Assembly (NCBI GenBank): GCA_027064425.1
Contig: JAMOPO010000052.1
Span: forward strand, 1-52,371
Source: Methanobacteriota archaeon
Lineage (GTDB): Archaea > JAADCQ01 > Methanopyri > Methanopyrales > Methanopyraceae
Direction: 5' to 3'
DNA length: 52,371 bases
The translations under genes and the position numbers were made by a program. This document shows positions 36,375-48,071 of the stretch, piece by piece; position 1 is the stretch's first letter; each line of letters opens with the position of its first letter. The notes below the pieces were generated by a model. That model was not told the origin of the DNA and did not search any database. It saw only the letters and a list, made by a program, of their open reading frames with translations.

Positions 36375-38657
36375 ATGGCACGATTCAAGCTCGACTTCGA
36401 GGGCATCAAGATCGAGATCGGGAGCGTCGAGAGCTTCGAACCGGAGGGTGAGGGACCGCACCCCTGCCCCTCCCTGTCGGATCTAAAGGACTGGGACCGG
36501 CGGCTGTTCTCCCGGTACAGGATCGCCGCGTTTCCAGTTTGCGACATGTGTTGTCTCTGCACGTTCGGCCGGTGTAACCTCGCGGAGGGAAGGCGCGGGG
36601 CGTGCGGGATCGATCTCCGCGCCAACGTGGCCCGGATGACCACCATCAAGACGTGCATCGGGGCCGCGTGCCACACCAGCCACGCCCGGCACCTGATCGA
36701 GTACATCCTCGAGAACGTCGGCGACGTGGAGATCGACCTCGGGCCCGAGATCGACGTTAAGATGCCCATCTTCGAGACCCTCCTCGGGTTCGAGCCCGAG
36801 ACGATCTCCGACCTGGAGAAGGGGCTCGAGTACATCGAGCGCGAGCTGACCAAGATCCTCGCCTCCGCCCACATGGGCCAGGAGTCCGACCCGCACGACT
36901 ACGAGTCCAAGGCCCTTCACGCCGGTATGCTCGACAACCTCGCGCTCGAGCTGGCCGACGTGGCCCAGATCGTCGCCTTCGACATGCCCAAGGGCGAGTC
37001 CCCGCTGGTCGAGTTCGGCCCCTTCGCGGCGGACGACTCCAAGCCCTGCATCCTACTCATCGGCCACAACGTCGCGCCCGGTACCGAGGTGCTGGACTAC
37101 CTCGAGGAGCGCGGTCTGGACGAGGAGGTCGAGGTCCTGGGCATCTGCTGCACGGCGTGGGACGCGTCCCGGGTCGAGAAGCGCGCCAAGGTCATCGGGC
37201 CGCTCTCCCGGCAGCTACACTACGTGAGGATGGGCATCGCGGACGTGATCATCCTGGACGAGCAGTGCGTGCGGGCGGACATCGTGGAGGAGGCCAAGGA
37301 GGTGGGCAGCCGCGTTATCACGACGCGGGACGTCCTCATGGGCGGCCTAAGGGACGTCACGGACGAGCCCGCGGACAAGATCGTGGAGAAGATGGCGTCC
37401 GGCGAGTGGATGGCCGTGTACATCGAGGACCTCGAGAAGGCGGCGAAGGTGGCGGTCGAGGTCGCGCTCAGGGTCCACGAGGAGCGTAAAAAGGAGGTCC
37501 CGCGGCCCGACCCGGACGAGATCAAGGGTCACGCGGAGCGCTGCCTGGAGTGCGGTGACTGCGAGCGCGTGTGCCCGAACGACCTCCCGATCGTGGAGGC
37601 GATGCGGAAGGCTCGCGAGGGCGACCTCGAGGACCTGGCCGAGCTCTTCTACCGGTGCGTGGGATGCGCTCGGTGCGAGTCGGAGTGTCCCGCGAGGATC
37701 CCGGTGATGAGGATCATCGAGGACGCCTGGCGCCTGAACGTTCGGAGGGAGCGGTACAAGGTCCGGACGGGTCGCGGTCCGATCAAGGACGTGGAGATCC
37801 GGCAGGTCGGCGGCCCGATCGTCATGGGTGACATCCCGGGAGTCGTCGCGTTCGTCGCCTGCCCGAACTACCCGGATGATATCCGCGAGATCGGTAGGAT
37901 GGTCGAGGAGCTCCTCGAGCGGAACTACATCGTGCTCACCTCCGGCTGCACGGCCATGGCCCTGGGGTACTACACGGACGAGGAGGGTAGGACGCTCTAC
38001 GAGAAGTACGAGGACCGGTTCGACGCCGGCTGCCTCGTGAACACGGGCTCCTGCATCTCGAACGCGCACATCCTCGGCGCCTGCATCAAGATCGCCGCGA
38101 TCTTCGCGAAGAAGCCGCTCAAGGGCAACTTCAAGGAGATCGCGGACTACATCATCAACCGGATCGGCGCGTGCGGCGTGCTCTGGGGCGCCATGAGCCA
38201 GAAGGCCCTCGCGATCTCGACCGGGTTCACGCGCTGGGGCATCCCGATCGTCTACGGGCCGGCCGGGCTCAACTACCAGACCCTGTACATCGGCGACCTG
38301 GACGGCGACTGGACCGTGTACGACGCCCGCACGGGCGAGAAGCGCGAGGAGCACTGCCCGATCCACCTCAAGTACGCGGCCGAGGACTGGCGTGAGGCCC
38401 TCGTCCAGGCCGTGAAGCTGTGCATCCGACCCAACGATACGCCGCAGGGCCGGCAGACCAAGCTGCAGAACTACGTGGAGCTGTACAAGAAGTTCTACAA
38501 CGAGCTCCCGCCCGACCTGCCCCTGTACGTGCGCGACGAGAACGACATCCCGCTCACGCTCAAGGACGAGATCATGGAGTACCTGGAGGAGGTCGGCTGG
38601 GAGCCCCGGGAGCCGATCTCCGAGCCCACGCTCCTGGAGGAGAACGCCCGGGGTTGA
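36375..38657 (+). CDS. cdhA: CO dehydrogenase/acetyl-CoA synthase complex, alpha subunit (NiFe CODH)
   Basis: This is the 760-residue catalytic alpha subunit of the archaeal ACDS complex, which interconverts CO2 and CO at the Ni-Fe-S C-cluster. B/D-cluster cysteines are C56, C59, C60, C62 and C67. Two extra 4Fe-4S motifs typical of the archaeal form are C390-C393-C396-C400 and C428-C431-C434-C438. Likely C-cluster ligands, matched by motif and spacing, are H231, C259, C298, C525, C560 and C600. The ATG start gives the normal N-terminus. It begins the operon and is followed six bases later by cdhB. Confidence 0.97.
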   Translation: MARFKLDFEGIKIEIGSVESFEPEGEGPHPCPSLSDLKDWDRRLFSRYRIAAFPVCDMCCLCTFGRCNLAEGRRGACGIDLRANVARMTTIKTCIGAACHTSHARHLIEYILENVGDVEIDLGPEIDVKMPIFETLLGFEPETISDLEKGLEYIERELTKILASAHMGQESDPHDYESKALHAGMLDNLALELADVAQIVAFDMPKGESPLVEFGPFAADDSKPCILLIGHNVAPGTEVLDYLEERGLDEEVEVLGICCTAWDASRVEKRAKVIGPLSRQLHYVRMGIADVIILDEQCVRADIVEEAKEVGSRVITTRDVLMGGLRDVTDEPADKIVEKMASGEWMAVYIEDLEKAAKVAVEVALRVHEERKKEVPRPDPDEIKGHAERCLECGDCERVCPNDLPIVEAMRKAREGDLEDLAELFYRCVGCARCESECPARIPVMRIIEDAWRLNVRRERYKVRTGRGPIKDVEIRQVGGPIVMGDIPGVVAFVACPNYPDDIREIGRMVEELLERNYIVLTSGCTAMALGYYTDEEGRTLYEKYEDRFDAGCLVNTGSCISNAHILGACIKIAAIFAKKPLKGNFKEIADYIINRIGACGVLWGAMSQKALAISTGFTRWGIPIVYGPAGLNYQTLYIGDLDGDWTVYDARTGEKREEHCPIHLKYAAEDWREALVQAVKLCIRPNDTPQGRQTKLQNYVELYKKFYNELPPDLPLYVRDENDIPLTLKDEIMEYLEEVGWEPREPISEPTLLEENARG

Positions 38658-38662
38658 GGCCC

Positions 38663-39142
38663 GTGCCGCTGCCCAAGGACCCGACGCTCATCTACACGAG
38701 CAAGGCCGAGGTCGCCCGGGCCCCGGTCATCCGGAGCCTCCTCTCCCGGGCGGACGAGCCCCTGTTCGTCGTGGGGCCCCGGGCCGTCGAGGACGACGAG
38801 TGGAGGGACCGGGTCGCCCAGCTCATCCGCCGGTTCCGGGCCGGCGCCGTCTGCACGGCCCCGTACGGTGGCGACGACCTGGGCCGCAAGATGGGGATGG
38901 TGGAGCTCGCCACCCTGCTCCAGCGAGACGCCCCCGTCCTCGGCTCGAACCCGGACGTGGTCGTGCTCACGGGCTCCCGAACGGACGTCACGGACCGAGT
39001 ACTCCAGAGCCTTCGGCACGCGCGCCCCGACCTCGTGAAAATCTCGCTGAACCCAGAGTACTGCCCGAGCGCCGACTACTCGCTCCCCACGATGGACATG
39101 GACGACTTCCTCAGGGAGCTGGAGGAGCTCCTGAAGGCGTGA
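38663..39142 (+). CDS. cdhB: CO dehydrogenase/acetyl-CoA synthase complex, epsilon subunit
   Basis: This is the 159-residue epsilon subunit that packs with CdhA in the alpha2-epsilon2 CODH component. It has a Rossmann-like nucleotide-binding pattern (PLFVVGPRAVED, then VLGSNPDVVVLTGS), as in the family. GTG 38663-38665 is preferred, with GAGG just upstream; a TTG at 38654 overlapping the cdhA stop is an alternative. The position between cdhA and the cdhA-like gene fits the ACDS operon. Confidence 0.9.
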   Translation: MPLPKDPTLIYTSKAEVARAPVIRSLLSRADEPLFVVGPRAVEDDEWRDRVAQLIRRFRAGAVCTAPYGGDDLGRKMGMVELATLLQRDAPVLGSNPDVVVLTGSRTDVTDRVLQSLRHARPDLVKISLNPEYCPSADYSLPTMDMDDFLRELEELLKA

Positions 39143-39146
39143 TCCA

Positions 39147-41072
39147 GTGGTACATGGGGGCCGCGATTCAGTGGAATTGGACGACGTCGAGGTCGAGATC
39201 GGCGAACTCATCGTGGAGGAGAAGCCGGAGGGAGAGGCCGAGGGTCCGACCCACCGCGAGCTTATCCACTGGGATCGAACGCTCACCTCGGTCTACGACC
39301 TGGTCGTCGTCCCGGGCGATTCCGAGGAGGAGCGGCGAGGGACGATCCGCACGATCGCCGAACTCTGCTGCAAGGGAGCGGCGACGCTGATCTCCACCGC
39401 CAAGCTAACGGTGGACCTGCTCCGCCAGACGGGCGGGAGGCTGGAACCCGGATTCGAGGCCGAGACTCCCCTCCCCATCTTCGAGACGCTCCTGGACGAC
39501 GCTCCCGAGCGCGCCGCCGATCTCGAGGCGGGACTCTCCTACGCCGAGCGGGAGCTTACGGCCTCGGTCTCAGAGCTCGCACGCTCCCACTCCGTTGAGG
39601 GTTACGAGGCCGTGGCACTGCACGCCGGCACGATCGGTCTCCTCGCGATGGAGATCGCGGACGCTGCCCTCTCCACGGTGATGGATACCCCGGACGCCGA
39701 GGACGTGTTCGAGATCGGGACCGAAAACCTGCCGAACCGCCCCACGGTCCTGCTGATCGGGCACCTACCCCTCATCGGGAGCGTCATCGTGGAGGAGCTG
39801 GGAACGCTCGCAAGACAGGTGGAATTCGTTGGGCTGACCCACACCGCGTGGCCCGACCGTAGCGACCACGTCAGGGTTGTGGGACCACTCTCGATGTACC
39901 GGGAGTACGTCTCCTCCGGCTTTGCGGACGTTGTGGTCGTGGACGGTGCGTGCCCGGGCGAGGACGTGGTTGAGGCGGCCCGCGGCGCCGGGTCCAAGCT
40001 GGTCGCCACCTTCGGGGCCCGCACAGCGGACCTCCCAGACGTCACCGACCAGCCCGTCGAGGAGGCCGTTGAGACGTTGGTCGCAGAGGAGGACGCGGTC
40101 TACGTCGAGGACCCCATCAAGGCCGTTGAGATCGCCGCGTGGGCGGCACTCCGCGTCGAAGGCTCCCGGGACCGCGGGGAACCGCCCTCGAAGAGCTTCC
40201 GAATCGGCCCACCCACCCGGCTCTCGGACGTGATCATCCGGGACGTGGGCGTACCGGTCGTATCCGGTAACATTCCCGGCATAATCGTGCTGCTATCCTG
40301 CCCCGAGAGGTCGGAGGACGTGGAGGAGCCGGTCAAAATCGCCGAGGCTCTTCTGAAGCGCGGCTACCTCGTGCTGGTCCCCGGCTGCCTGGCCATCGCG
40401 CTGGGCTCTTACCGGGACGAGGACGGGAGGTCCCTGTACGAGCGTTACCCGGACTCGCTCCTCCACGTCGGCCCCTGCACGTCCGCCGCGCACCTGGTCG
40501 GCGCCTGCGTCCGTATCGGAGTGATCTTCGGGAAGCTCTCGATCCGAGGGAAGTTCGCCCGGGTCGCCGACTACGTGCTCAACCGAGTCGGAGCCTGCGT
40601 AGTAGCGTGGGGTAGGGAGTTCTCGGAGCACCTGATCGCGGCCGCCTACGGGGTGACCCGGTGTGGGATTCCGGTGGTGATTGGACCGGACCCGGACGCG
40701 GGGTCCCTGCTAGTCGAAAGGGAGCCGAGGGTTATCGACGCTCGATCGGGTGAGGAGGCGGAAGATCCGACCCCGGAGCATCTCCGGTGCGCGGTCTCTG
40801 ACTGGAAGGAGGCGGCGGTCACGGCCGCGCGGCTCTGCATGCGTCCCAACGACACTCCGGAGTGCCGGCAGAGGAAGGTTGAGGCGTACGTCGAGCTGCA
40901 TCGGGAGCTCTACGGGGAGCTGCCGCCCGACCTTGACCGGCTCATCCGAGACGAGAACGACGTTCCCCCGGCGCTCAAGTCCGAGATCCGGGAGCGGTTG
41001 GAAGAGGCTGGATGGACGCCCGGATCACGCGCGTCCGATCCCACGCTGTTACCAGAGGAAAAGCAGGGGTGA
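39147..41072 (+). CDS. CdhA paralogue lacking B/D clusters and ferredoxin domain
   Basis: This 641-residue protein aligns with CdhA along its length. Shared blocks are PIFETLL, YAERELT, the H206 region (LLIGH), GCLAIALGSYRDEDGRSLYE and RPNDTP. The C-terminal PPDLDRLIRDENDVP also matches. It lacks the CdhA cysteine block CDMCCLCTFGRC and the whole two-cluster ferredoxin insertion of about 120 residues. Of the six C-cluster ligands, H206, C269, C414, C444 and C484 remain, but CdhA C258-C259 is replaced by T231-H232. The frame is open and full-length, so it is not a decaying pseudogene. GTG 39147 or GTG 39171 may be the start. Function unknown. Confidence 0.85.
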   Translation: MVHGGRDSVELDDVEVEIGELIVEEKPEGEAEGPTHRELIHWDRTLTSVYDLVVVPGDSEEERRGTIRTIAELCCKGAATLISTAKLTVDLLRQTGGRLEPGFEAETPLPIFETLLDDAPERAADLEAGLSYAERELTASVSELARSHSVEGYEAVALHAGTIGLLAMEIADAALSTVMDTPDAEDVFEIGTENLPNRPTVLLIGHLPLIGSVIVEELGTLARQVEFVGLTHTAWPDRSDHVRVVGPLSMYREYVSSGFADVVVVDGACPGEDVVEAARGAGSKLVATFGARTADLPDVTDQPVEEAVETLVAEEDAVYVEDPIKAVEIAAWAALRVEGSRDRGEPPSKSFRIGPPTRLSDVIIRDVGVPVVSGNIPGIIVLLSCPERSEDVEEPVKIAEALLKRGYLVLVPGCLAIALGSYRDEDGRSLYERYPDSLLHVGPCTSAAHLVGACVRIGVIFGKLSIRGKFARVADYVLNRVGACVVAWGREFSEHLIAAAYGVTRCGIPVVIGPDPDAGSLLVEREPRVIDARSGEEAEDPTPEHLRCAVSDWKEAAVTAARLCMRPNDTPECRQRKVEAYVELHRELYGELPPDLDRLIRDENDVPPALKSEIRERLEEAGWTPGSRASDPTLLPEEKQG

Positions 41073-41078
41073 GCGCGC

Positions 41079-42485
41079 TTGACGAGCCTCGCGGACCTGC
41101 CCGTGGACGTGAGCCCCCGGCACGAGGGCGAGCGGATCCGCAGCGGGGACATGTACGTGGAGCTCGCCGGCCCGAAGAGCTTCGGCGCCGAGCTCTTCCG
41201 CGTGGTGGACGAGGACGAGATCGAGCCGGACAAGGTCGAGGTGATCGGGCCGGACATTGACGAGATGGAAGAGGGTGAGCGGTACCCGTTCGGCATCCTC
41301 GTCAAGGCGGCCGGGGAGGAGCTGGAGGAGGACGTGGAAGGCGTCCTGGAGCGACGCATCCACGAGTTCTGCAACTACGTGGAGGGGTTCATGCACCTCA
41401 ACCAGCGGGACCAGATCTGGTGCCGCGTGTCCAAGGAGGCGGCCGAGAAGGGCTTCCGGCTCGAGCACCTGGGCATCGCCCTTCGCGAGCTGTTCAAGGA
41501 GGAGTTCGGCAACGTGATCGACGCGATCGAGGTCACTCTGATGACGGACGAGGAGCGCGTGAAGGAGTTCGTGGAGCAGGCTCGAGAGGTGTACAGGGAG
41601 CGGGACGAGCGGGCGCGCGAGCTCTCCGAGGAGGACGTGGACGAGTTCTACGTGTGCCTCATGTGCCAGTCCTTCGCGCCCACGCACGTGTGCGTGATCA
41701 CGCCCGACCGGCCGAGCCTCTGCGGCTCGATCACCTGGCACGACGCCAAGGCGGCGCACAAGATCGACCCGGAGGGCCCGATCTTCCCGATCGAGAAGGG
41801 TGAGTGCCTGGACCCCGAGGCGGGCGAGTACGAGGGCGTGAACGAGGCGGTCAAGGAGCACTCGCAGGGGACGGTGGAGCGGGTTTACCTCCACTCCTGC
41901 CTTGAGTACCCGCACACGAGCTGCGGCTGCTTCCAGGCGATCGTGTTCTACATCCCGGAGGTGGACGGGTTCGGCATCGTCGACCGCGAGTACTCGGGCG
42001 AGACCCCGCTCGGCATGCCCTTCTCCACGATGGCGGGCGAGGCGAGCGGCGGTGAGCAGAAGCCGGGCTTCGTGGGCATCTCGTACGGCTACATGGAGTC
42101 GGACAAGTTCCTCCAGCACGACGGCGGGTGGGAGCGCGTCGTCTGGATGCCCAAGGAGCTGAAAGAGCGGGTGAAGCACGCCATCCCGGACGACCTGTAC
42201 GACAAGATCGCCACGGAGGAGGACGCGACCACGGTCGAGGAGCTCAAGGAGTTCCTGGAGGAGGTCGAGCACCCGGTCGTCGAGCGGTGGGAGGAGGAAG
42301 AGGAGGTTGAGGAGGAGAAGGCCGAGGAGGCGGTCGCCGAGGAGGAAGAGAGGCCGGTGGTGGAGGCGGAGGAGCTGCCCGTCGCGCCCGGTGGTGGTCT
42401 CAACGTGAAGATCGTGCTCAAGAACGCCAAGATCTACGCCGAGAAGGTCATCATCAAGCGCGAGGACAGGGAAGGAAAGAGTTGA
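41079..42485 (+). CDS. cdhC: Acetyl-CoA synthase, beta subunit of ACDS
   Basis: This 468-residue subunit makes acetyl-CoA from CO, a methyl group and CoA at the Ni-Ni-4Fe4S A-cluster. A-cluster cysteines match the family spacing: C193, C196, C205, C215 and the CGC pair C282 and C284. An acidic low-complexity linker (about residues 405-440) precedes the conserved C-terminal tail GGGLNVKIVLKNAKIYAEK. The start is TTG 41079, six bases after the cdhA-like gene. The TTG start of the next gene overlaps its stop codon. Confidence 0.97.
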   Translation: MTSLADLPVDVSPRHEGERIRSGDMYVELAGPKSFGAELFRVVDEDEIEPDKVEVIGPDIDEMEEGERYPFGILVKAAGEELEEDVEGVLERRIHEFCNYVEGFMHLNQRDQIWCRVSKEAAEKGFRLEHLGIALRELFKEEFGNVIDAIEVTLMTDEERVKEFVEQAREVYRERDERARELSEEDVDEFYVCLMCQSFAPTHVCVITPDRPSLCGSITWHDAKAAHKIDPEGPIFPIEKGECLDPEAGEYEGVNEAVKEHSQGTVERVYLHSCLEYPHTSCGCFQAIVFYIPEVDGFGIVDREYSGETPLGMPFSTMAGEASGGEQKPGFVGISYGYMESDKFLQHDGGWERVVWMPKELKERVKHAIPDDLYDKIATEEDATTVEELKEFLEEVEHPVVERWEEEEEVEEEKAEEAVAEEEERPVVEAEELPVAPGGGLNVKIVLKNAKIYAEKVIIKREDREGKS

Positions 42486-43240
42486 TCCTCGCCTTCACCG
42501 GGAAGGGCGGGACGGGGAAGACCGTCCTCGCCGCCCTCTCCGTCCTCGAGCTCACCGAGCGCGGGCCCGGCGACCTTCTAGTCATCGATGCGGACCCGGA
42601 CGCGAACATGCCGGACGCCCTGGGCGTCGAGCCCGAGACCACGCTGGGCGAGGTTCGGGAGCGGTTCAAGCGCGAGATCGAGGAGGAGCAGCTCCCGCCC
42701 GGCTTTGACAAGCAGGCGTACATGGAGTACCTCGTCATGACCGCCCTCCACGAGACCGAGGACTTCGACCTCCTCGTCATGGGCCGCTCCGAGGGTCGCG
42801 GGTGCTACTGCGCCGTCAATCACTGGCTCCGCCGGGTCATGTCCGACCTGCTCCCCGAGTACGATCTCGTGGTGATGGACTGCGAGGCCGGGCTGGAGCA
42901 CGTCAGCCGCGGCATCATCGACGGCGTCGACCTGGTCCTGATCGTGGTCGATCACTCCCGGAAGGCTCTGCGGACCGCCGCCCGGATCGTGGAGCTCATC
43001 GACGAGCTCGAGTCCGAGGTGGGCGAGGTTCGGGTCGTTGCGAACCGCGTCACGGAGAGGGAGTACCGCGTGATCCGGCGCGAGGGGGAGCGGATGGGGC
43101 TCTCCTTCCTCGGCCGGGTTCGACCGGACGAGGAGCTGGTCGAGCTGGAGCTGCGCGGTCGGCCGCTCACCGAGCTCTCCCCCGACTCCAAGGCCCGGCG
43201 CGACGTCCGGGAGATCCTCTCCCGGGCGGGGGTGGTGTAG
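42482..43240 (+). CDS. cooC: CooC-type nickel-insertion ATPase for CODH/ACS
   Basis: This 252-residue P-loop ATPase of the SIMIBI/MinD class probably helps load Ni into the C- or A-cluster. The deviant Walker A is GKGGTGKT (7-14), followed by VIDADPDANMP. The CxC metal-binding pair of CooC proteins is C108 and C110 (GCYC). The TTG start overlaps the cdhC stop. It sits between cdhC and cdhD, the usual place for the accessory gene in methanogen cdh operons. Confidence 0.9.
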   Translation: MILAFTGKGGTGKTVLAALSVLELTERGPGDLLVIDADPDANMPDALGVEPETTLGEVRERFKREIEEEQLPPGFDKQAYMEYLVMTALHETEDFDLLVMGRSEGRGCYCAVNHWLRRVMSDLLPEYDLVVMDCEAGLEHVSRGIIDGVDLVLIVVDHSRKALRTAARIVELIDELESEVGEVRVVANRVTEREYRVIRREGERMGLSFLGRVRPDEELVELELRGRPLTELSPDSKARRDVREILSRAGVV

Positions 43241-44446
43241 TTGTCCGAGCGGGAGAGGGTCGACGAGCTCCTGGAGAAGCTGCTGAACCGCGTTCTCGGC
43301 GAGGGCGGGGTCGAGGAGGTCGAGCTCCGGAACGTTTCGATCGAGGTGGAGGAGCTGGAGCTGGACCTGCGCACGGTCGCTCAGGCGCTGCCCCGCGAGG
43401 TCTGGGAGCGGCTGGTCAAGCCCCGGGCGGAGGAGGCTCGGCGGGAGGTGGAGGTACCCGAGTACGAGCCTCCGGTCGAGGAGTACGAGGGGGAGGTGGC
43501 CGAGGTCCAGCTCGGGGCGACGCGCTCCGAGGGTGGCACCCGCGACCGGGTGGTCAAGCTCGGTGGCGAGCGCGCTTACTTCGTCTTCGAGGGCCCGCGA
43601 CCGAACCCGCCCGTCGTCACGTTCGACGTGTTCGACACCCCGGACGTCGGCATTCCCGGCCCCATCCGGGAGGAGCTGGGGGACGTGGTCGAGGACCCCG
43701 TGGACTGGGCTAGGACGGTCGTGAAGCGGTACGACGTGGACGTGATCACGCTCCACCTGGTGAGCACGTCCCCGAAGCTGCACGACGCGCCCGTGGAGGA
43801 GGCGATGAAGACCCTGGAGGACGTGCTCGACGCGGTGAAGGTCCCGGTCATCGTGGGCGGCTCGGGCGACCCGGAGAAGGACGTCGAGCTGTTCGTGAAG
43901 GCGGCCGAGGTGTGCGAGGGCGAGCGGGTGATGCTCTCCTCGATCAACGAGGACATGGACTTCGAGCGGGTGGTCGACGCGGCCAAGGAGTACGGGCACG
44001 TGGTCCTGACCTTCGCACCGGTCGATGTTAACATGATGAAAACCCTGAACAAGAAGGTGCTCAACCGGGGCCTCTCGAAGGAGGACGTGGTGATGGACCC
44101 GACCACGTGCGCGCTCGGCTACGGCATCGAGTACACGGTTGACGTGATGACCCGGATCCGGCTCGCCGCGCTCCGCGGTGACGAGTACCTCCAGATGCCC
44201 ATCTCGAGCGGCTCGACCAACGCGTGGGCGGCCCGAGAGGCCTGGATGAAGGAGGAGTCCTGGGGCCCGCGCGAGTACCGGGGCCCGCTCTGGGAGGCCG
44301 TGACCGCGACCACGGTCGCCCTGTGCGGCGCCGACCTCCTGATGATGTTCCACCCCTGGGCCGTCCGGGTCGTCCAAGAGGCGCTCGAGCACATGGGTCG
44401 CGAGCGGAAGGGTGGGGACGCCTACGTCACGGACTTCATCGCGTAG
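43241..44446 (+). CDS. cdhD: Corrinoid Fe-S protein small subunit, ACDS delta
   Basis: This 401-residue subunit forms, with CdhE, the corrinoid protein that carries the methyl group from tetrahydromethanopterin to the A-cluster. The TIM-barrel blocks are PVVTFDVFDTPDVGIPGPIR, DVITLHLVSTSP, VPVIVGGSGDPEKD and a C-terminal SSGSTNAWAAREAW. The first 100 or so residues are acidic and variable. TTG 43241 immediately follows the cooC stop. Confidence 0.95.
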   Translation: MSERERVDELLEKLLNRVLGEGGVEEVELRNVSIEVEELELDLRTVAQALPREVWERLVKPRAEEARREVEVPEYEPPVEEYEGEVAEVQLGATRSEGGTRDRVVKLGGERAYFVFEGPRPNPPVVTFDVFDTPDVGIPGPIREELGDVVEDPVDWARTVVKRYDVDVITLHLVSTSPKLHDAPVEEAMKTLEDVLDAVKVPVIVGGSGDPEKDVELFVKAAEVCEGERVMLSSINEDMDFERVVDAAKEYGHVVLTFAPVDVNMMKTLNKKVLNRGLSKEDVVMDPTTCALGYGIEYTVDVMTRIRLAALRGDEYLQMPISSGSTNAWAAREAWMKEESWGPREYRGPLWEAVTATTVALCGADLLMMFHPWAVRVVQEALEHMGRERKGGDAYVTDFIA

Positions 44447-44457
44447 GGGGGCCCGGG

Positions 44458-45852
44458 ATGCCCGAGGTCAGCGCCATGGACGTGTACAAGCTCCTCCCCA
44501 AGTCCAACTGCGGGGCCTGCGGCTGCAAGACCTGCATGGAGTTCGCGACCAAGCTGGTCAACCGGGAGGCCGACCCGGAGGACTGCCCCAACCTGGACGA
44601 GGAGGCCCTGGAGAAGCTCCGCGAGCTGCTCGCCCCGCCCATCCGCGAGGTCTCCATCTGCGAGGGCGATCGGAGGGTGGTCGTCGGAGGCGACGAGGTG
44701 CTCTTCCGGCACGAGCTCTCGTACTTCAACCCGCCCCCCGTCTTCATCGCCGTCTACGACGACATGGAGGAGGACGAGCTGCGCGAGAAGGTGGAGCGCG
44801 CCCAGGAGTTCCAGGTCGAGCGAGTGGGTGAGACCCTCCGGGTGGACGGGCTCGCCGTCGTCTCCCGGACCGGGGACCCCGAGCGCTTCGCAGCGGCCGT
44901 GGAGACGGCCGTCGAGCACTCCGAGGACCTCGCGATCGCCCTCGTGTCCCAGAGCCCCGACGTGCTGGAGTCGGGGCTGGACGTGTTCGACGAGCGCCCG
45001 CTGCTCTACCCGTGCACGGAGGAGAACCGAGACGACATGATCGAGCTCGCGGCGGAGCACGAGTGCCCCCTAGGGCTTCACGCGACCGAGGTCGAGGACC
45101 TGGTGGAGCTCGCGGCTCACGCCCGCGAGCGGGTGGAGGATCTCCTGCTGGACCCGGGGACGGAGCTCGGCCCGCACGACGTGGTCGCCACGACGGACAA
45201 GCTGGCCGAGCTCCGGAAGGCCGCCATCGAGGAGGAGTTCGAGCTCCTCGGGTACCCGACGCTGGTCACGACCTTCCCGTACCGGTTCCTGGAGGATGAT
45301 CCGGTGGAGGCCGCGCGGCGCGAGTCGTACCTGGCGTCCGCGTGCGTGCTCCGCTACGCGGACGCGCTGATCATGGACACCCTCGAGCCCTGGGCGCTGC
45401 TCCCCGTCCTGACCCAGCGCCAGTGCATATACACGGACCCGCGCGAGCCGCAGGAGGTGGACCCGGGCCTCTACAAGATCGGGGACCCGGACGAGCACTC
45501 GCCCGTGCTCGTGACCACGAACTTCACCCTCACGTACCACTGCGTGGCGGACGACCTGGAGAGCGCGGACGTCGACTGCTGGCTCCTCGTGATCGACACG
45601 GGCGGGCTGGCCGTCGACGTCAGCGTGGCGGGTGGGCAGTTCAACGGGCAGGCGGTGAAGGAGGCCCTGGAGGAGTTCAACGTCGAGGAGAAGGTGAATC
45701 ACCGGGTGCTCGTGATCCCGGGCAAGGCCGCGGCGGTAAAGGGGGACGTGGAGGACGCGACCGGTTGGAAGGTCGTGATCGGCACCCAGGACTCCTCCGA
45801 GCTCCCGGAGTTCCTTGAGAAGGAGGGCCTGCTCAGGATAGAGGAGGGATAG
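44458..45852 (+). CDS. cdhE: Corrinoid Fe-S protein large subunit, ACDS gamma
   Basis: This 464-residue large corrinoid subunit has an N-terminal 4Fe-4S domain with C18, C21, C26 and C43, a central TIM-barrel methyl-transfer domain, and a C-terminal corrinoid-binding region (LVIDTGGLAVDVSVAGGQFN). ATG 44458-44460 is chosen because it follows a good ribosome site and gives the expected start PEVSAMDVYKLLP; the open frame upstream is non-homologous. It completes the ACDS set cdhA-B-C-D-E. Confidence 0.96.
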   Translation: MPEVSAMDVYKLLPKSNCGACGCKTCMEFATKLVNREADPEDCPNLDEEALEKLRELLAPPIREVSICEGDRRVVVGGDEVLFRHELSYFNPPPVFIAVYDDMEEDELREKVERAQEFQVERVGETLRVDGLAVVSRTGDPERFAAAVETAVEHSEDLAIALVSQSPDVLESGLDVFDERPLLYPCTEENRDDMIELAAEHECPLGLHATEVEDLVELAAHARERVEDLLLDPGTELGPHDVVATTDKLAELRKAAIEEEFELLGYPTLVTTFPYRFLEDDPVEAARRESYLASACVLRYADALIMDTLEPWALLPVLTQRQCIYTDPREPQEVDPGLYKIGDPDEHSPVLVTTNFTLTYHCVADDLESADVDCWLLVIDTGGLAVDVSVAGGQFNGQAVKEALEEFNVEEKVNHRVLVIPGKAAAVKGDVEDATGWKVVIGTQDSSELPEFLEKEGLLRIEEG

Positions 45853-45855
45853 GCC

Positions 45856-46791
45856 GTGACCACCGTGCTGGTGACGGGCGGGGCCGGGTTCATCGGCTCG
45901 CACGTGGTGGAGGAGCTCGTCGAGCGGGACTACAACGTCGGCGTCATCGACTCGCTCGTCTCCGGGGACCTGTCCAACCTGGAGCGCGTGATCGACGAAA
46001 TTGAGTTCTGGCGGGTGGACGTCCAGGACCCGCGCGGCGTCGAGACCGTCTTCTCGGAGTTCGAGCCCGACGTCGTCGTGCACCTGGCCGCGCAGACGAA
46101 CGTCCGGTACTCCATGAGGAACCCCGTCGCCGACGCGAGCGTGAACGTGATGGGCACCCTGAACCTCGCCTCCCTCGCCTCCCGCTACGAGGTGGAGCGC
46201 TTCGTGTACGCCTCCTCGGGCGGGGCCGTGTACGGAGAGCCCCAGTACCTGCCCGTGGACGAGGAGCACCCGACCAGACCCATCTCCAGCTACGGCGCGT
46301 CCAAGCTGGCCGGCGAGCACTACGTCCGCGTGTACGCCGAGGCGGACGGCTTCGACCACGTCATCCTCCGGTACGCGAACGTCTACGGGCCGCGCCAGGA
46401 CCCGCGCGGCGAGGCGGGCGTGATCTCGATCTTCCTCCACCGGGCCGCCCGGGGCGAGCCGCTCCGGGTCTTCGGGGACGGCGAGCAGACGCGCGACTTC
46501 GTCTTCGTCCGGGACGTCGCCCGCGTGACCGCCGACGCGGTGGAGAAGGGCCGCGGCGTCTACAACATCGGCTCCGGCCGCGAGACGTCCGTGAACGAGA
46601 TCGTCGAGCTCGTCCGTAAGGTCACGGGCCGGGACGTGAAGGTCGTGTACGAGGATGCACGGGCGGGCGAGGTGCGTCGCATCTACCTGGACATCACCCG
46701 GGCCCGCAAGGAGCTCGACTTCGAGCCCGAGACGGACCTCGAGGAGGGCGTGAAGATCACCTGGGAGTGGATCAAGTCCAACGTTCCCTGA
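45856..46791 (+). CDS. NAD-dependent sugar-nucleotide epimerase/dehydratase (GalE-like)
   Basis: This 311-residue extended short-chain dehydrogenase has the NAD motif GGAGFIG (8-14), S120-S121 and the catalytic Y146xxxK150 in SSYGASK. It resembles UDP-glucose 4-epimerase, but the exact sugar cannot be told. The GTG start is three bases after cdhE, so it is cotranscribed with C1-metabolism genes though its chemistry is unrelated. Likely role in surface glycan or exopolysaccharide precursor supply. Confidence 0.88.
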
Positions 46792-47312: not shown

Positions 47313-48071
47313 ATGGTCAAACTCGGGATCGTCGGCAAGGGGGGCGTGGGCAAGACCACCGTCGCCGCCACCCTCTCCAAGCTCCTGGCCGAGCGCGGGT
47401 ACGAGGTCCTCGCCGTGGACGCCGACCCCGACCCGGACCTCGCGTACTCCCTGGGACTTGACGAGTGCCCCACCCCGGTCGTTGAGCGCGACGATCTCAT
47501 CGAGGAGCGGACGGGAGCGCCGCCCGGCACGACGCTGGGCGCCGTCTTCAGGGTCAACCCGCGCGTCTCGGACCTCCCGGACCGACTGGCCGTGGAGGTT
47601 GAGCCCGGACTGCGGCTCCTGGTGGTCGGACGGGTGGAGGACGCTGGTGAGGGCTGCTTCTGCCCCGCGGCAGCGCTCGCGCGCCGCCTGATCCGCCACG
47701 TCGTCGCCGACCGGGACGAGGCGATCGTCGTGGACACGGACGCGGGGCTGGAGCACTTCGGCCGGCGGGTGCTCGAGGCGGTCGACTGGGTCGTGATCGT
47801 CTGCGAACCGTCCGTCAAGTCCTTCAAGAACGCGCGTGAGTCCGCCCGACTCGCCCGGCGGCTGGGCATCGACCGGGTAGCCCTCGTGCGGAACAAGTGG
47901 GTCGAGGGCGTGGACGGCCCGGACGTCGACGTGGACGCCTCCGTCACCATCCCCGAGTCCTCCAAGCTGAAGCGGCTCGAGCTCCAGGGTCGACCCGTGT
48001 GGGAGGACGAGACCGTCCGGGAGGCGTGCGAGGAGCTCCTTGATCGGATGCTCGAGCTCCAGCGGGGGTGA
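47313..48071 (+). CDS. Second CooC-type ATPase
   Basis: This 252-residue SIMIBI ATPase has Walker A GKGGVGKT (8-15), VDADPDPDLAYSLG and the CooC-type CxC pair C115 and C117 (GCFC). It is equal in length to, but only moderately similar to, the first CooC copy. It lies between the CooF-like ferredoxin and korD, with 33 G/C-rich bases upstream. Possibly it serves a second Ni site or the CdhA paralogue; this is inference. Confidence 0.87.
   Translation: MVKLGIVGKGGVGKTTVAATLSKLLAERGYEVLAVDADPDPDLAYSLGLDECPTPVVERDDLIEERTGAPPGTTLGAVFRVNPRVSDLPDRLAVEVEPGLRLLVVGRVEDAGEGCFCPAAALARRLIRHVVADRDEAIVVDTDAGLEHFGRRVLEAVDWVVIVCEPSVKSFKNARESARLARRLGIDRVALVRNKWVEGVDGPDVDVDASVTIPESSKLKRLELQGRPVWEDETVREACEELLDRMLELQRG

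Follow-up and report, generated by a model that had tools for sequence, protein, structure and literature searches.

The cdhX locus

The window, meaning the whole stretch of 52,371 nucleotides that was analysed, belongs to a Methanopyrus genome of 1.54 Mb and carries an acetyl-CoA decarbonylase/synthase (ACDS) operon in the order cdhA-cdhB-cdhX-cdhC-cooC-cdhD-cdhE, with intergenic gaps of a few bases. The name CdhX is used here for a CdhA paralogue of 641 amino acids. Its reading frame of 641 codons runs without interruption from 39147 to 41072 (+), starting 4 bases past the cdhB stop and ending 6 bases ahead of the cdhC start, with a start codon that is uncertain by about 10 codons, the orthologues starting 5 to 10 codons further in. 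Against the CdhA family model TIGR00314 it scores 374 bits over two stretches, which is under the 781-bit equivalog cut-off. On this profile evidence CdhX is confirmed as a homologue of CdhA, and the sequence-only reading that first drew attention to an uninterrupted, full-length CdhA homologue right behind cdhB is borne out. The features of the locus are as follows.

36375..38657 (+), cdhA, complete catalytic alpha subunit
38657..39142 (+), cdhB, divergent epsilon subunit; the longest frame starts at 38420
39147..41072 (+), cdhX, CdhA paralogue (frame, TIGR00314, orthologues in G001, G002 and G003, AlphaFold2 model)
39312..39317 (+), site of the deleted B/D-cluster block (P56-G57), replacing CdhA residues ~55-84 with all B/D cysteines (alignment)
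39387..39407 (+), L81/T84/L87 at the HxxHxxH proton relay of CdhA (alignment)
39762..39764 (+), H206, matching the exo-iron His of the C-cluster (alignment with CooS)
39837..39842 (+), T231-H232 at the invariant Cys-Cys of CdhA, H232 at the exo-iron Cys position
39951..39953 (+), C269, C-cluster ligand position (Cys333 of Ch CODH-II)
40185..40220 (+), site of the deleted E/F ferredoxin insert of ~90 residues
40227..40265 (+), helix alpha-A (361-373) with R365 (A-cluster Arg), V369 and V372 (CO alcove)
40299..40301 (+), C385, C-cluster ligand position (Cys446)
40386..40388 (+), C414, C-cluster ligand position (Cys476)
40476..40532 (+), helix alpha-B (444-462) with C444 (Ni-ligand Cys position), T445, A447, R456, F461 (alcove) and G462
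40629..40631 (+), H495 at the invariant catalytic Lys position (CdhA K610)
40734..41054 (+), C-terminal extension, residues ~530-636; its equivalent touches ACS in Methanosarcina CODH
41079..42485 (+), cdhC, ACS beta subunit of the archaeal type without an A1 domain
42482..43240 (+), cooC1, CooC-type ATPase, also in the cdhX-less G004
43241..45852 (+), cdhD and cdhE, corrinoid protein subunits
47313..48071 (+), second CooC-type ATPase, not specific to cdhX

Two neighbours of cdhX may be remarked upon in their own right. The Methanopyrus CdhB (window 38420-39142) is unusually divergent, scoring 48 bits against TIGR00315 with its cut-off of 101 bits, and cdhB evolves faster than the remaining genes of the operon. 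A galE-like epimerase gene (window 45856-46791) lies between cdhE and the second CooC gene and is found at the same place in three other Methanopyrus genomes.

Lost catalytic residues and retained cluster ligands

Residue losses were counted in four CdhX sequences against 69 CdhA sequences. Neither the B/D cysteine block nor the E/F insert is found in any of the four orthologues; the insert is the two-ferredoxin domain that was already reported as lost, together with that block, from the window sequence. Every B-cluster and type-I D-cluster cysteine is missing, and the E/F deletion removes eight cysteines that are invariant in CdhA. The replacement of the CdhA C258-C259 pair by T231-H232 likewise holds in four out of four, both cysteines being invariant in the 69 CdhA.

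The C-cluster ligand columns were fixed by the CooS sequences within the alignment. H206, C269, C385, C414 and C444 are kept in CdhX, while H232 stands at the position of the exo-iron Cys in all four sequences, leaving the six-ligand set incomplete. The conserved His and Cys residues therefore do fall on C-cluster ligand positions. The count of five retained ligands agrees with that given in the sequence-only reading, but the membership does not: C484 had been listed, and the actual fifth ligand is C385. C484 was rejected as a ligand: 49 of 64 other CdhA have Val in its column, where CooS has Ser, Thr or Ala.

Two further losses had been overlooked. The proton relay of CdhA (H100/H103/H106) is Leu/Thr/Leu in CdhX, and the catalytic Lys (K610) is H495, each in four out of four; every one of the catalytic residues examined is lost. 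In CODH-II, changing Cys295 to Ala or Glu gives a Ni-deficient protein without CO oxidation (PMC9311411). Because the HxxH relay and the catalytic Lys are gone from all four sequences, and because the C295A/E forms of CODH-II are inactive, conversion between CO and CO2 by CdhX is very unlikely. Retention of five ligands points to continued cluster formation, and the former C-site probably holds a residual Fe-S cluster of structural function.

The C-cluster of a CODH passes electrons to the B-cluster of the partner subunit. A heterodimer of CdhX with CdhA is unlikely, since CdhX is without the B-cluster that would accept the electrons of its partner's C-cluster.

Distribution, origin and selection

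A homologue search and a CdhA tree had been proposed as checks on the sequence-only reading. In the search, cdhX was found in four of five Methanopyrus species, at the same place in the operon, immediately upstream of cdhC in each, with 75-78% identity; in two of the four it sits on single-contig genomes. The fifth species (G004, a draft) has a complete operon with cdhC directly behind cdhB, and CdhX was not found anywhere in its contigs. As that operon is complete without it, cdhX is dispensable. A CdhX profile search found no orthologue in ~385 other archaeal genomes, ~180 of which gave CdhA, with absence less well shown in the last phyla, where only a stringent threshold was applied. Second CdhA-like copies do occur in two genomes of Methanococcales type (L070 and L071, in G073 and G063), where the matches cross in-frame stop codons in the scan.

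In a CooS-rooted tree built on 472 columns of the shared core, CdhX groups with Methanopyrus CdhA on a long branch, with support of 100/99. By this placement CdhX is shown to be a Methanopyrus-specific duplicate of CdhA. The tree was used because the C-terminal PTLL tail shared by the two proteins, which had been considered as proof of the duplication, is common among archaeal CdhA and was rejected. The five Methanopyrus CdhA form a group apart from CdhX with support of only 55/65, so a gain before the radiation of the genus followed by loss in G004 and a gain after the G004 split are inseparable.

A tree of Rossmann fold 2 (RF2) only, including the A1 domains of ACS, gave a different picture. 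In it CdhX came out between A1 and CdhA, as an ancient relict would, and the AU test rejected the grouping of CdhX with Methanopyrus CdhA (p 0.01). The A1 root landed inside the four CdhX sequences, however, as is expected of convergence or long-branch attraction, and the relict placement was rejected in favour of the 472-column tree.

Pairwise dN/dS is 0.14-0.25 for CdhX and 0.06-0.17 for CdhA, with synonymous sites near saturation in the wider pairs. By this measure CdhX is under purifying selection, with a constraint about half as tight as that on CdhA, and its values are far below those near 1 that had been named as speaking against a functional metal site. A pseudogene or assembly artefact was rejected, the gene being intact in four species with these ratios. 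The lower GC3 of cdhX was rejected as a sign of weak expression, as it occurs only in the window species. No description of cdhX was found in the literature on Methanopyrus CODH, and CdhX is apparently an undescribed, genus-specific pseudoenzyme of known fold.

The surface facing ACS

In the Methanosarcina CODH/ACS, CODH binds ACS through its RF2 and C-terminal extension; R500 of this CODH forms a bond with the glycine by which the A-cluster is coordinated, and the CO alcove and gate are made up of L504, V507 and F601 (PMC11474084). In Moorella ACS, changing the alcove Phe to Ala lowers CO affinity 30-fold (PMC11321310). Residues R365, V369, V372 and F461 of CdhX align with R500, L504, V507 and F601, and are present in all four sequences. 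An AlphaFold2 model gives a confident CODH fold (pLDDT 87, pTM 0.88) in which the alcove residues lie on helices 361-373 and 444-462, and the top Foldseek matches of the model are Methanosarcina CODH structures (TMq 0.83).

Columns that are invariant in CdhA are unevenly retained. CdhX keeps 32 of 47 in RF2 and 15 of 18 in the C-terminal extension, against 9 of 23 in the helical domain and 14 of 27 in Rossmann fold 1 (RF1), or 47/65 versus 23/50 when these are paired (Fisher p 0.007). The C-terminal extension is also the sole domain in which CdhX lies nearer to Methanopyrus CdhA (0.48) than the latter does to other CdhA (0.45). The best-surviving part of CdhX is its ACS-facing half, which has apparently been remodelled.

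Resemblance to the A1 domain

The ACS of acetogens has an RF2-like domain of its own, A1. A structure paper from 2024 proposes that A1 derives from a duplicated CODH Rossmann fold 2, and that the extra module lengthens the CO path, favouring synthesis over re-oxidation. It has also been stated that all modern archaeal ACSs are without A1 (PMC11474084). An A1 region is nevertheless encoded in 21 of 36 genomes of the Methanococcales-type phylum (L103, L105-L125; G025, G041, G044 and others), within an ACS of ~740-780 aa where the frame is complete, in contrast with that statement.

A profile of A1 was built from Methanococcales-type sequences, C. autoethanogenum and Carboxydothermus. The RF2 of CdhX scores 51-62 bits against it and that of Methanopyrus CdhA 35-40; CdhX outscores 68 of the 69 CdhA, the lone CdhA in its range being the ordinary L015 at 58 bits. 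On a CdhA profile, CdhX falls 110-130 bits below Methanopyrus CdhA. When the same sites were given random BLOSUM replacements, none of 2000 sequences (4 x 500 trials) attained the A1 score of CdhX, although this null is crude and ignores the constraints of the fold. One of the largest gains is at V369, an alcove position that is Gly in Methanopyrus CdhA and mostly Ala or Gly in others. The rest of the largest gains are at V485, I363 (an invariant Glu in CdhA), G462 (an invariant Ala), T445 and R456 (an invariant Lys), and the A1-ward substitutions lie mostly on the two gas-gate helices. The case that these helices have converged on the A1 domain is good but not conclusive, because it concerns one lineage, a post hoc comparison suggested by the data, and a null of the kind described.

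Possible roles of CdhX

Methanopyrus is a heat-loving, CO2-fixing methanogen, in which ACDS runs in the synthesis direction. The favoured reading, in our judgement an evenly balanced proposition, is that CdhX derives from a CODH alpha subunit that lost catalysis and now serves this complex as a non-redox subunit binding ACS. Duplication of the Methanopyrus cdhA gave cdhX, whose product shed the chain of electron-transfer clusters, the proton relay, the catalytic Lys and the Cys of the exo-iron while retaining the fold, five C-cluster ligands, the CO alcove and the Arg that holds the glycine of the A-cluster. Its two gas-gate helices acquired residues typical of A1. With docking on ACS and membership of the ACDS complex presumed from sequence, the RF2 of CdhX would pack onto CdhC, as that of CdhA or A1 does, and close the alcove over the A-cluster, acting in trans like A1. 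This may stop the escape of CO or acetyl, or the hydrolysis of acetyl, so that CdhX would serve as a cap, an extended waiting room for CO or a docking site, making no CO itself, with an Fe-S cluster remaining as a structural element at the old C-site.

Two of the four suggestions of the sequence-only reading gain support here: that of a non-redox partner from the loss of redox clusters and acid-base residues, and that of a CO-channel or ACS-binding subunit from the unanimous retention of the A-cluster Arg and alcove and from the bias of conservation towards RF2 and the C-terminal extension. The same dock is kept by CdhA, and its retention in CdhX could partly be fold inertia; a metal role is suggested as well, because the five cluster ligands are retained. 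The more specific proposal, that CdhX evolved independently into a counterpart of A1 acting in trans, in which a whole CODH duplicate was stripped of its redox chemistry to become a CO-alcove and gate subunit for an ACS without A1, is put forward tentatively, as possible but on balance doubtful.

It is rather unlikely that CdhX is an assembly or holding protein, building or parking a cluster (Fe-S or Ni-Fe-S) that is destined for CdhA or CdhC. The five ligands are invariant in all four sequences though catalysis is gone, and a CooC ATPase adjoins cdhC, but both CooC ATPases occur in G004 without CdhX, and it is the ACS-facing half that conservation favours. We know of no CODH maturation that employs such a scaffold, which is counted against this role. 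The second CooC-like ATPase (47313-48071), earlier thought able to serve CdhX, has orthologues in G004 (64%, at a contig edge) and in distant archaea lacking CdhX (42-43%); for this reason co-occurrence does not make it a partner of CdhX, and it was rejected as a dedicated maturase.

A regulator or competitor, binding CdhC or CdhA without catalysis and so limiting the ACS that is engaged, or sensing CO, is an unlikely identity for CdhX. Such a protein would use the same retained dock, and its presence varies naturally between species; CdhX has no sensor domain, and its sequence cannot separate this role from that of a docking subunit.

We think it quite unlikely that CdhX works as an enzyme on some other small molecule in the manner of a hybrid cluster protein (HCP) or CODH-V, with a different cluster whose exo-iron is held by two His. 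Known deviants change the same Cys, to Glu in CODH-V and HCP (PMC9311411, PMC10502027) and to Thr in clade G-1 (PMC6344411), and the ligands of CdhX are conserved. Neither Glu of the hybrid cluster is present, however (H232, S493), the absence of the B, D, E and F clusters leaves no electron path, the relay His and catalytic Lys are gone, and the CODH-II C295A/E forms are Ni-deficient and have no CO activity. The earlier idea of new chemistry at a His/His-ligated iron keeps its pair of His but is weakened by these absences. That CdhX is a functionless, decaying duplicate is very improbable: its rate of evolution is about double that of CdhA and it is missing in G004, but its dN/dS is low, it is intact in four species including two with single-contig genomes, its cluster and alcove residues are invariant and its predicted fold is confident.

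How A1 arose is an open question that bears on how carbon fixation began. In bacterial ACS this domain houses the CO channel and alcove; the Methanosarcina enzyme does not have it. CdhX is a natural CODH duplicate, still separate from ACS, in a CO2-fixing archaeon with one species of the genus lacking it. Were it a trans-acting counterpart of A1, it would show in a present-day organism the kind of CODH Rossmann fold 2 duplication from which A1 has been proposed to originate. CdhX also adds a CODH without any electron-transfer clusters. Published surveys of CODHs describe filtering for sequences with no deletion of the D, B or C cluster and no change of C-cluster Cys; sequences of the CdhX type would have been dropped, which may be why CdhX has not been discussed before.

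Comparison with known systems

CODH-V (CooS-V) and the hybrid cluster proteins are, like CdhX, deviant members of the fold in which the exo-iron Cys is replaced and CO chemistry is absent. They differ in their Glu ligands, at the Cys295 position and at a second site, where CdhX has H232 and S493, and CODH-V has electron-transfer clusters whereas CdhX has none. Two archaeal CooS (L138 and L139, in G060 and G059) have Glu at the exo-iron Cys position, as in CODH-V. The genome of the window also encodes a prismane-family protein (L104, G000 C57:176500-179800), a 738-aa open frame resembling class III hybrid cluster protein.

The nearest degraded groups within clade A of the Ni-CODHs are A-4 and A-6 (PMC6344411), which like CdhX have degraded exo-iron ligands and acid-base residues and keep the cubane Cys. 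These groups retain the B-cluster and E/F clusters and have D-P or N-S at the exo-iron, whereas CdhX has lost the clusters and has H-H. The combination seen in CdhX (no B, D or E/F clusters, H-H-C-C-C-C, Leu, His) is absent among the published Ni-CODH groups (PMC6344411).

With CdhA itself (TIGR00314; Ni-CODH clade A; PDB 3CF4, 9C0Q-T, 8RIU), CdhX shares the fold, RF1, RF2, the C-terminal extension, the A-cluster Arg, the CO alcove, five of six C-cluster ligand positions and the operon. CdhA has, and CdhX is without, the B, D, E and F clusters, the exo-iron Cys (His in CdhX), the relay His and the catalytic Lys, and CdhX stays below the family cut-off.

The A1 domain of bacterial and Methanococcales ACS (Moorella, Carboxydothermus, C. 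autoethanogenum) likewise has a CODH-type Rossmann fold 2, the Arg and the CO alcove. CdhX differs in being a separate, full-length CODH-like protein, unfused to ACS A2-A3 and encoded just upstream of cdhC. The helical domain CODH_A_N (PF18537) is matched by Methanococcales ACS and not by CdhX. Their ancestry is also distinct, CdhX, unlike the A1 domain, having come from the CdhA of Methanopyrus.
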